This document shows, in pieces, positions 8,184-62,414 of a stretch of DNA of 64,000 nt. Under the pieces are notes generated by a model. The model was not told the DNA's origin. It did not search any database and saw only the letters and a list, made by a program, of their open reading frames with translations. Location: the NCBI RefSeq assembly GCF_024228675.1, contig NZ_CP100461.1, positions 3,903,398 through 3,967,397 of the forward strand. Reading direction: 5' to 3'. The translations under genes were made by a program, and so were the position numbers. The stretch's first letter is position 1; each line of letters opens with the position of its first letter. This DNA comes from Salinigranum marinum (GTDB taxonomy: Archaea; Halobacteriota; Halobacteria; Halobacteriales; Haloferacaceae).

Positions 8184-8226
8184 GTTCTCTCCGCGTGTGA
8201 CGCGCGTCGACTACTTCATCGACGAC

Positions 8227-8353
8227 GCGGTGCGGTGGCGCGCGCTGGCGCGACTGCGGTCGCGCCCAAGCGCGCGAGGGATGAAGTGAGTGGCCGAGTG
8301 GAACGAGGGCACGAACGAATCGGCTGGGGAGGCTCGTGGTTTCCCCGCCCTGG
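8227..8353 (+). repeat. dispersed GC-rich intergenic repeat, copy 1
   Basis: This copy lies in the 360-base gap between the PHP and aldo/keto reductase genes. It shows all the landmarks of the family: GCGGTGCGGTGGCGCGCG at the left, GCGCGAGGGATGAA in the middle, and AATCGGCTGGGGAGG followed by CCCCGCCCTGG at the right. Related copies lie at 37168-37447 (two), 49091-49350 (two) and 57319-57448. No coding frame is credible, and nothing else is evident in the rest of this gap. Confidence 0.7.
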
Positions 8354-8543
8354 CGATACGCGGTACTCGACGCTCCCTCGACCCGCTCACAACGGGACTC
8401 TGATCCACTCTCCCCGGGCTCTGCCGCCTCCCTCGCACCGCCCGTCCCGTCTCCGTTCCCCAGCACGGCACTCGCGGCCACGCTCGCGACGAACCCACAA
8501 GCTTTGACACCAGGGGCCGTCCAGACGGGAACGACCGACCCTC

Positions 8544-37065: not shown

Positions 37066-37167
37066 TGCTCGGCCATCGGGTGGTGGATGGGGTGGGCTCT
37101 TCGCGTTCCGTGAGTGGTCGCGTTCCGTGAGCAATCAGGCTCTCCGAGCGAGACAACTGCGTCAGTC

Positions 37168-37290
37168 CATAGGGCGGTGACGCCTCGCCCTCCCCAGCCG
37201 ACTCGTTCGCTCGTTTCACTCGCTCACTCGCCCCTCGCGCGAGTCGCTCACTGCGTTCGCTCCCGCGCGTCGACCGCCGCGAGCGGTGTG
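37168..37290 (-). repeat. dispersed GC-rich intergenic repeat, copy 2a
   Basis: Read on the minus strand this copy shows the family landmarks: GCGCGAGGGGCGAG, then CGAACGAGTCGGCTGGGGAGG, ending GGCGTCACCGCCCTATGG. It faces copy 2b head-to-head. Its tail (GAGGCGTCACCG) is nearly the same as that of copy 3b at 49228-49350. Confidence 0.65.
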
Positions 37291-37447
37291 GTGGCGCGTG
37301 TCGTCGCGGCCTCTGTGGTCGTTCCCGTGAGGCATCCGAACGGGAGCCAGCGAGGCCGTGGTCTCGCCTGGCGACGGACGCGTGAGGGATGAGTGGACGA
37401 GTGAACGGCGTGAGCGAGTGAGCGACTCGGCTGGGGAGGTCTTCGGG
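37282..37447 (+). repeat. dispersed GC-rich intergenic repeat, copy 2b
   Basis: The plus-strand copy begins GCGGTGTGGTGGCGCG (37282-37297), has GCGTGAGGGATGAG in the middle (37380-37392) and ends ACTCGGCTGGGGAGG (37425-37439). It has about 60 extra bases after the left landmark compared with copy 1. Confidence 0.65.
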
Positions 37448-37583
37448 CGTGAGCGAGACGAACGACCGAACGGCTCGGAGCGCCGCGGGCGCTCCGGTGG
37501 CGCGGCCGCACCGTCCTGGCGCATCGTCCCCTGTCGGTCAACGAACCACTGCCTCGTCCACTCGCCAGGTCACGAACCGAACG

Positions 37584-47376: not shown

Positions 47377-47393
47377 GCGGTGTGGTGGCGCGG
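47377..47393 (+). repeat. fragment of the dispersed repeat (left landmark only)
   Basis: GCGGTGTGGTGGCGCGG repeats the left end of copy 2b. The rest of the family sequence is not recognisable in the gap that follows (47394-47487), so this is a truncated copy or a chance match of 16-17 bases. Confidence 0.4.
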
Positions 47394-48969: not shown

Positions 48970-49090
48970 ACGCTCCCGTCTCCCTCGCGCGGCTAACCGT
49001 TGTCGGTCCGTATCGTCTCCCTGGGAACGTTCCAGCCCGGGCTTGTGGCGCCAGGTGTCGCGGCCTCGGATCGGACGAAGCCGGGAGCAG

Positions 49091-49230
49091 CCAGGGCGGG
49101 GTATTCCACGACCTCCCCAGCCGATTCGGACGCTCGCTCCCGTCGGTCGCTCCCGTCCTCATCCCTCGCGCGCTCACTCGCTCACATCCGTTCGCTCCCT
49201 CGTCGCGCGCCACCGCAGCCGCTCCGTGAG
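49091..49230 (-). repeat. dispersed GC-rich intergenic repeat, copy 3a
   Basis: On the minus strand it runs GCGGTGGCGCGCGACGAG, GCGCGAGGGATGAGG, CCGAATCGGCTGGGGAGG and TACCCCGCCCTGG. The tail is close to that of copy 1 (8300-8353). It faces copy 3b with left ends together. Confidence 0.7.
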
Positions 49231-49350
49231 CGGTCGGCGTGCGGGAGTAAAGCGAGTAAAGCGAGCGAACGACTCGCGTGGGGGGCGACCGACCGAGTGA
49301 AACGAGCGAAGGAGTCGGCTGGGGAGGAGTGAGGCGTCACCGACCTGGCG
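49228..49350 (+). repeat. dispersed GC-rich intergenic repeat, copy 3b
   Basis: The plus-strand copy has a diverged left part (GAGTAAAGCGAGTAAAGCGAG is an internal duplication), then GAAACGAGCGAAGGAGTCGGC and TGGGGAGG followed by GAGGCGTCACCGACCTGG. Together with copy 3a it fills most of the 508-base gap between hmgA and the amidohydrolase gene; the remainder shows no gene. Confidence 0.65.
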
Positions 49351-49477
49351 TCCGTTCTCCCCGTCTCCGGCCGACACCCGCTCTCGTCTCTGTATCCACG
49401 CCTCACAGACGACGGCACACGACACCATCCCGGGCCGGCTCCCGAACGTTCTTGGCTCCGCCCGCCGGTGAGAGCGT

Positions 49478-57318: not shown

Positions 57319-57448
57319 CGCGGTGCGGTGGCGCGCGGGAGCGAGCACCGCGAGCGACTCGCGCGAGGGATGAGCGACCGGGCGAGCGACGGAACGGAGC
57401 GAGCGCGAGAGCGAATTGGCTGGCGAGGACGTGGCCCAATCGCCCTGG
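57319..57448 (+). repeat. dispersed GC-rich intergenic repeat, copy 4
   Basis: Landmarks are GCGGTGCGGTGGCGCGCG at the left, CGCGCGAGGGATGAGCGA in the middle, and GAGCGAATTGGCTGGCGAGG then CAATCGCCCTGG at the right. The right end has diverged (GGCTGGCGAGG instead of GGCTGGGGAGG). It occupies the 355-base gap (57259-57613) between the UPF0045 and YihY genes; the rest of the gap includes a short duplication of CTTTCGCCCCGTCAGCCGCACC-like sequence (about 57464-57512) and no gene. Confidence 0.7.
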
Positions 57449-57613
57449 TGACTGTTCGGCGTTTTCGCCCCGTCAGCCGCACCGACGCTCTTTCGCCCCG
57501 TCAGCCGCACCGACACCGTCGCCGACCGCTCGTCACGCCCGTTGCCCGCGAACCGGTCCCGTGACACCCACTCTCCCCGCCAGGTTATCTCCACCCCGGC
57601 CGTACCACGCGCC

Positions 57614-60757: not shown

Positions 60758-60828
60758 TGCGCTGGCTGGGATTTGAACCCAGGTTGTGACCATGGCAAGG
60801 TCACGTGATACCACTACACTACCAGCGC
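60758..60828 (-). tRNA. tRNA-Gly (GCC)
   Basis: The minus strand folds as a cloverleaf: acceptor GCGCTGG/CCAGCGC, D-arm GTGT...TCAC, anticodon stem TGACC/GGTCA with loop TTGCCAT (anticodon GCC), and T-arm CTGGG-TTCAAAT-CCCAG. The discriminator is A and CCA is not encoded. A TATA-like GGATTTTTATAGC (minus strand, 60860-60872) lies about 38 bases upstream, as expected for an archaeal tRNA promoter. Two partial copies of its 3' end lie downstream. Confidence 0.95.
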
Positions 60829-61557: not shown

Positions 61558-62414
61558 CACTCAGCGTACTCGTGCCGTCTTCCCTCGTCCGGGAAGCCGA
61601 GGACCAACGCGAGGCGACTCGCAAACTCGGCTACGTCGCCCGAGCGGCGACGGTGTTCCGGGCGGACCGGCTCGTCGTCTTCCCCGACCGGGAAGGCGAA
61701 ACACGGTGGGGAGGCGGGTTCGTCGAAACCGTACTCCGGTACGCCGCCACCCCACCCCACCTCCGAAAGGAGGTGTGGGACAGGCGGGACGAACTGGCGT
61801 ACGTCGGTGTCTTGCCGCCCCTCCGAATCGCGTCTACGACCGGCTCCGACTCTGCCGAGTCGGGGTCGTTAACACAGGGAATCGTGACTGAGGTCGGACC
61901 TGAAGGCCGCGTCCGGGTCACTTGCGGACTGCAACACCCGATCTCGCTCCTCGTCCCCTCCGACATGGAGGTCGAGGAGGGAGAGCGCGTCACCATCAGG
62001 ATCTCTTCGAGAGAGCCGGTCCGTGCGCGGATCGTCGACGCCCCACAGCCGGGGTACGACGTCTCCCGTATGGACCTCGCGGAAGCGCTGGGCCGCCCCG
62101 ACGCCGGGATTCGCGTGGCGACGTCCCGGTTCGGACGGCCGCTGTCCGCCGACGGACTGGCGGATCTCACCCGCCGGGTCGCCGAGGGCGCAACGGTCGC
62201 CTTCGGCGCGCCCGGGCGGGGGCTTCCGGACATCCTCGGTATCGAGACCGAGGCCGTCGCCGCCGCGAGCGGCGAAGTCGAACCCGACGGTTCGGATCCG
62301 GGGTTCGACCTCTGGCTGAATACGATTCCGGCGCAGGGCAGCGAGGTGGTGCGAACGGAGGAAGCGATGTTCGCCTCGCTCGCGACCCTGACACTCCCAA
62401 GCCAGACGGAGTAA
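61554..62414 (+). CDS. SPOUT-like RNA methyltransferase (DUF171) heading the ribosomal operon
   Basis: A 286-residue protein of the archaeal DUF171/SPOUT methyltransferase family, beginning MTLSVLVPSSLVREAEDQREATRKLGYVARAATVFRADRLVVFPD. It contains an OB-like insert (GIVTEVGPEGRVRVTCGLQHPISL) and the knot-associated motif FGAPGRGLPDILG. It probably methylates rRNA. It sits directly upstream of rpl3 and is a known companion of the L3-L4-L23 operon in archaea. The ATG at 61554 is preferred over the longer frame from 61452 because the promoter lies inside that extension. Confidence 0.85.
   Translation: MTLSVLVPSSLVREAEDQREATRKLGYVARAATVFRADRLVVFPDREGETRWGGGFVETVLRYAATPPHLRKEVWDRRDELAYVGVLPPLRIASTTGSDSAESGSLTQGIVTEVGPEGRVRVTCGLQHPISLLVPSDMEVEEGERVTIRISSREPVRARIVDAPQPGYDVSRMDLAEALGRPDAGIRVATSRFGRPLSADGLADLTRRVAEGATVAFGAPGRGLPDILGIETEAVAAASGEVEPDGSDPGFDLWLNTIPAQGSEVVRTEEAMFASLATLTLPSQTE

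Follow-up and report, generated by a model that had tools for sequence, protein, structure and literature searches.

An intergenic repeat family of haloarchaea with a conserved three-hairpin fold, probably formed in DNA rather than RNA

Six GC-rich sequences of similar build lie between the genes of the 64,000-nucleotide stretch of Salinigranum marinum DNA analysed here (the window; 69% G+C, from a genome of 4.9 Mb in 4 contigs), and they raise the question of what kind of element they represent: a mobile element, a structured RNA, or a nucleoid or terminator site, as the first-pass annotation had variously proposed. All six are confirmed from the sequence at the places claimed, and a covariance model finds exactly these copies in the window and no others; they occupy not six separate sites, however, but four loci, namely, a head-to-head inverted pair at each of 37.2 and 49.2 kb, and single units at 8.2 and 57.3 kb. 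The copies, and the parts of the first of them, are as follows (covariance model scores in brackets; H1 to H3 denote three hairpins).

8234..8356, + strand: copy 1, a single unit (109.9 bits, E = 2.2e-14), in the order box 1, H1, GCGCGAGGGATGA, H2, TCGGCTGGGGAGG, H3, CCCTGGCGA
8227..8242, + strand: box 1 of copy 1, GCGGTGCGGTGGCGCG, the 5' end of the unit and the start of the H1 stem
8272..8284, + strand: conserved box GCGCGAGGGATGA of copy 1, between H1 and H2
8285..8319, + strand: the H2 hairpin of copy 1, whose arms are imperfect (a variant form), placed from the sequence and the family structure
8320..8332, + strand: core TCGGCTGGGGAGG of copy 1, the 5' arm of H3 (exact match)
8347..8356, + strand: GCCCTGGCGA of copy 1, the 3' arm of H3 and the end of the unit
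37166..37274, − strand: copy 2a, left half of an inverted pair, GAGGGGCGAG variant (E = 2.9e-7)
37290..37450, + strand: copy 2b, right half of the inverted pair (E = 1.7e-5)
49088..49214, − strand: copy 3a, left half of an inverted pair (E = 7.7e-12)
49246..49351, + strand: copy 3b, right half of the inverted pair (E = 4.0e-5)
57327..57451, + strand: copy 4, a single unit with a diverged core, TTGGCTGGCGAGG (E = 6.5e-8)

The unit is about 120–130 nt long; for copy 1, blastn matches to copies elsewhere cover positions 8226–8356. From 5' to 3' it comprises GCGGTGGCGCG, which opens H1, then GCGCGAGGGATGA, H2, and (G)AATCGGCTGGGGAGG, which pairs with a downstream CCCTGGC to form H3. An exact core, TCGGCTGGGGAGG, is present at 8320 (+), 37189 (−), 37427 (+), 49112 (−) and 49315 (+), and the copy near 57416 carries it with two mismatches. 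The unpaired boxes are invariant, and the long boxes outside the stems are conserved across families of the order; the arms of H1 vary in sequence while their complementarity is kept. Individual copies depart from this plan: copy 2b has additional hairpin sequence within H1 and the 3' arm of its H3 is shifted to about 37521, and the H2 arms of copy 3a read GGACG...CGTCC. The CCCTGGC arm is common to the window genome (20/36) and Halosimplex (24/29), and the tail of the Natrinema copies differs from it. In Halosimplex loci such as L060, L071 and L153, the tail of the element runs into a conserved GGACTGAAAGGG (23 of 29 copies); this motif is also seen in Haladaptatus and in MAGs, and may be a second repeat. 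A further sequence at 47377 (+) of the window, GCGGTGTGGTGGCGCG, is one mismatch from box 1, with the rest of the unit absent, and is probably a chance occurrence.

Genome-wide, the core occurs exactly 40 times and, with one mismatch allowed, 86 times, versus 13 for a reversed-letter control; a two-landmark pattern gives 20 matches in this genome and none in the control. The alignment, covariance model and wider search that the first-pass annotation called for were carried out: the model, built from 20 copies and applied at E ≤ 1e-3, detects 57 copies, every one of them on the main contig of 4.0 Mb (82% of the genome), and relatives occur across the order, so that the outcome that would have spoken against a family, no further matches and an alignment no better than shuffles, is clearly not what was observed. 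Among 146 genomes sampled over the order, the exact two-landmark pattern is present in at least 33, from at least 15 of 57 genera (reversed control, 0); it marks at least 120 stretches in haloarchaeal genomes, the taxa including Natrinema, Halosimplex, Natronococcus, Haladaptatus, Halorussus, Halococcus, Haloarchaeobius and many MAGs, and many of the sampled genomes do not carry it. Two genomes, G102 and G172, hold 117 and 76 cores, respectively (controls, 0). The exact two-landmark copies of G102 are 38 forward and 19 reverse, mixed along the contig; we make no claim of a replication-strand bias, as this comparison was picked after the data had been seen. Family matches were found in five plasmid records and none in the phage records searched. 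The family is apparently undescribed: we found no account of it in the open-access literature on haloarchaeal intergenic, palindromic or MITE-like repeats (a scope that leaves most subscription journals aside), where the core string likewise led to nothing describing the family.

The copies are confined almost entirely to intergenic DNA (193 of 195 examined) and take both orientations, as had been proposed for the window. Relative to the neighbouring genes, as delimited by a home-made gene caller, 55 of 160 copies are sense, 38 antisense, 45 in convergent and 22 in divergent spacers, such that the gene-strand bias is only weak. A terminator role is unsupported by these counts, given the weak bias between sense and antisense and the copies in divergent spacers. 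Inverted pairing is a recurrent feature: the five close pairs among the covariance model matches are all −/+, and the core motif reveals more −/+ pairs. In Natrinema, an inverted pair of about 330–350 bp is the usual form, and is arranged +/−, tail-to-tail with the 3' cores on the inside, which reverses the head-to-head arrangement of the window genome.

The positions of the copies change between relatives. Three congeners whose genes are 81–84% identical show no detectable copy at the 8.2 kb site, where their spacers measure 105, 105 and 247 bp. In one congener, G146, the spacers at the syntenic 8.2, 49.2 and 37.2 kb sites are free of the element and span 105, 25 and 19 bp, respectively, versus 373–517 bp with elements in the window genome; G148 lacks a copy in the 37 kb spacer, and G147 carries single copies of its own at each of the 49.2 and 37.2 kb sites. 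The best match of the 8.2 kb copy within its own genome is about 79%, and no near-identical, recent copies are seen. Between sister species of Natrinema (91–97% identity), inverted pairs lose, replace or invert arms, and small perfect hairpins with GNA loops have been gained inside H2 of orthologous copies; no clean pair of empty and filled sites was found among these genomes, the sites being shared but rearranged, with no exact insertion boundary. Target-site duplications, which the first-pass annotation had proposed looking for, do not occur at lengths of 3–9 bp above the level of permuted pairing; insertion is therefore read from spacer length alone. Thus, of the suggestion of a non-autonomous mobile element, the order-wide spread and the changing positions are borne out, and the target-site duplications are not. 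Two further observations concern rearranged loci. An insert, TTAGCGCGGGACCGGAGGTCCCGCGAACCATGCGAACGGGTGC..., recurs after H2 at 83.2 kb of the stretch fetched from G160, at 54.6 kb in G159 and in G047 C4, and forms perfect hairpins, several with GNA loops. Additionally, L218 (G159) and G047 C4 (reverse strand, about 6.5–7.2 kb) share an orthologous gene pair, between which the left arm and spacer of one are the reverse complement of the other, as if the pair had been inverted.

These data bear on whether the repeat is a chromosomal site for protein binding, topology or repair, kept for the benefit of the host and spread only incidentally. The restriction of all 57 copies to the main contig, the scarcity of plasmid matches and lack of phage matches, the invariance of the unpaired boxes and the preference for convergent over divergent spacers (45 versus 22) would all suit such a site; however, many genomes of the order do without the family, and both position and number differ between congeners and sister species. 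We consider this explanation unlikely, although it is the best placed of the alternatives.

The feature that most distinguishes the family is its fold. RNAalifold, applied to 20 copies, returns the base of H1, H2 with gaps at tandem G.A pairs, and H3. The runs of GAGCGA/GAGTGA noted in the first-pass annotation do vary in length, but they are not filler between landmarks: they are the two arms of H2, in which, in an ungapped register, Watson–Crick dinucleotides alternate with 5'-GA-3'/5'-GA-3' tandem mismatches. The tandem G.A pairs are kept in most copies. Wobble pairing of GAGT with GAGC proved to be wrong, the fitting register being Watson–Crick. The common H2 lengths are 26, 34 and 42, as expected if one 4-nt step is added per side. 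When the 3' halves are shuffled among copies, a control that is ungapped and independent of the aligner, Watson–Crick cells number 135 of 152 in the window genome versus 82.9 ± 6.1 shuffled, and 284 of 348 in other species versus 163.4 ± 7.8. Moreover, in the 20-copy alignment, which was made without the structure, although its sequences are also those that the structure comes from, 50 cells have both sides changed, versus 12.8 ± 3.4 shuffled and at most 9 with the structure slid. A single orthologous Natrinema copy illustrates such change in H1, where CC/GG has become TC/GA and GT/AC has become GC/GC. Only one strand folds well, as the opposite strand would carry C.T mismatches. We are confident that the family has a conserved single-strand fold of three hairpins. 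At L087, L132 and L167, the sequence upstream of the GAGGGATGA box has an alternative H1 with GCGAACGGTGACCGGAGGGAACCGTGAGC, which again combines tandem G.A pairs with a GNA loop, and hairpins of this type may be common between haloarchaeal genes.

Compensatory evolution is usually attributed to RNA. In this family, folding as DNA can be told apart from folding as RNA by the statistics of base pairs and loops, a test applicable to other repeats. GNRA loops of RNA require a purine at the third position, and among DNA loops d(cGNAg) and d(cGNNAg) stand out for their stability. The triloops of H2 are GNA in 42 of 58 cases, closed by a C-G pair in 54 of 58. In G102, an independent genome analysed afterwards, 22 of 29 H2 loops are GNA or GNNA and 27 of 29 have the C-G closing pair, with C as the third base in all seven GNNA loops. 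Among H1 tetraloops of the GNNA form, the third base is C in 17, G in 14, T in 12 and A in 2, and hence they are not of the GNRA type. In the H2 stem, G.T pairs are about three times rarer than shuffling predicts, with a ratio of 0.31 (5 versus 15.8; 14 versus 46), and the ratio for A.C pairs is 0.13–0.23; by the same measure, the acceptor stems of 29 haloarchaeal tRNAs, a small control, give 0.83 for G.T and 0.18 for A.C.

A structured RNA family, in which each copy would be transcribed, be it as an sRNA or inside a UTR, and then fold into the three hairpins, would account for the limitation of good folding to one strand, the strong covariation and the slight excess of sense over antisense copies; in addition, H3 has a fully or almost fully conserved T.G/G.T pair, and such a pair would be ordinary in RNA as U.G/G.U. 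Against it, G.T is avoided nearly as much as A.C, unlike in tRNA stems, the loops are GNNA and C(GNA)G instead of GNRA, the copies lie in both orientations to genes, and Rfam, at gathering and relaxed thresholds, has no family matching at the copies. The same search places an L4-Archaeoglobi ribosomal protein leader at 61900–61999 (+) of the window (73 bits), in this haloarchaeal genome, and a tRNA gene at 60758–60828 (−; 66.7 bits). Of the marks of a structured RNA, covariation is thus present, and G.U tolerance and RNA-type loops are absent: a conserved single-strand fold, as that earlier suggestion would require, stands, and its features suit DNA better than RNA. We regard an RNA family as quite unlikely. 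The loop types, the G.T depletion and the weak gene-orientation bias together lead us to conclude that the folded form is probably DNA.

Covariation could also arise, with no selection on function, as a mutational product, should self-templated synthesis at hairpins (template switching) correct and enlarge quasi-palindromes. Indeed, the extra perfect GNA-loop hairpins that orthologous copies in sister Natrinema carry inside H2 are what such a process might leave behind; but tandem G.A pairs would be expected to be corrected away, yet most copies retain them, and conservation between families of the order extends to the long boxes that lie outside the stems, which makes this explanation very improbable. 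The unit could instead be a classical MITE, the derivative of a DDE insertion sequence that has terminal inverted repeats. Small size, high copy number and the lack of a coding frame would suit this, as would the inverted ends of the paired form, but we discount it almost entirely: no terminal inverted repeat is evident on a single unit, duplications of 3–9 bp are absent, no transposase lies between two nearby arms, and no gene recurs beside the copies.

On balance, and with moderate confidence, we favour a non-autonomous, REP/BIME-like interspersed chromosomal element of haloarchaea, which would act as folded single-stranded DNA and depend on a mover supplied in trans. No gene family was found to recur beside copies, including any Y1 gene, and PF01797 (Y1_Tnp) has no match in the element-rich genomes G005, G024 and G104; Y1_Tnp is thereby ruled out as the obligatory mover. 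Nor does the ORF between two neighbouring arms at 2.645 Mb encode a transposase: read from its translation, it is probably a host protein. The lack of target duplication, of a recurring neighbouring gene family and of Y1_Tnp in element-rich genomes is what points to a REP/BIME-like single-stranded DNA element whose mover these searches do not assign to a family. How the family moves and what it does we infer as follows. The top strand, when single-stranded, would fold into three neighbouring hairpins with C(GNA)G or C(GNNA)G loops and stems of Watson–Crick dinucleotides alternating with tandem G.A; the folded form would be single-stranded DNA that becomes accessible during replication, repair or transfer. 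A hairpin-recognizing enzyme acting in trans may have copied or inserted the units between genes, one at a time or in inverted pairs, with no duplication of the target, after which the arms would diverge while the fold was kept.

Among known systems, the REP, BIME and REPIN sequences of bacteria are closest in behaviour: they are intergenic, palindromic and present in many copies, they form inverted doublets, they lack coding capacity, and single-stranded DNA hairpins have been proposed for them (PMC3116915, PMC3733652). The haloarchaeal family is likewise high-copy, intergenic and palindromic (57 copies by covariance model; 193/195 intergenic), with frequent inverted doublets. It differs in that the REP unit is one hairpin of 20–40 bp, whereas the haloarchaeal unit has three hairpins in about 125 nt, with tandem G.A stems and GNA loops, in an archaeal host; the GTAG/CGTC tag of REPs is not evident among its conserved boxes; and the RAYT (Y1) protein linked to REPs has no counterpart tied to it, although CGTC-type REPs also seem to be without a dedicated transposase (PMC3733652). 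Membership of the REP/REPIN class therefore fails on unit size, structure and a linked RAYT. The ends and relics of IS200/IS605 elements share subterminal single-stranded DNA hairpins and the lack of target duplication, but here no Y1 gene recurs nearby and several element-rich genomes have no Y1_Tnp match. Haloarchaeal MITEs are also small, non-coding chromosomal repeats, but the present unit has no evident terminal inverted repeats or target duplication.

More tentatively, and at appreciably longer odds than the favoured reading itself, these could be order-wide elements kept by evolution as folded single-stranded DNA, through G.A-rich hairpins and DNA-specific loops, and spread by a non-Y1 enzyme dependent on single-stranded DNA, as an archaeal counterpart of REPINs. 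Were this right, the DNA-folding elements of haloarchaea would make up a large and old family for which no enzyme is known, raising the questions of what moves and maintains such elements in archaea, and of whether single-stranded DNA folds act in their chromosomes. The d(GCGAAGC) mini-hairpins and d(cGNNAg) tetraloops are super-stable motifs of DNA oligonucleotides. The first of these sequences also occurs in published work such as PMC4686876. In loop and closing pair, such mini-hairpins match most H2 and many H1 hairpins; what were oligonucleotide motifs recur here in a genomic repeat family.
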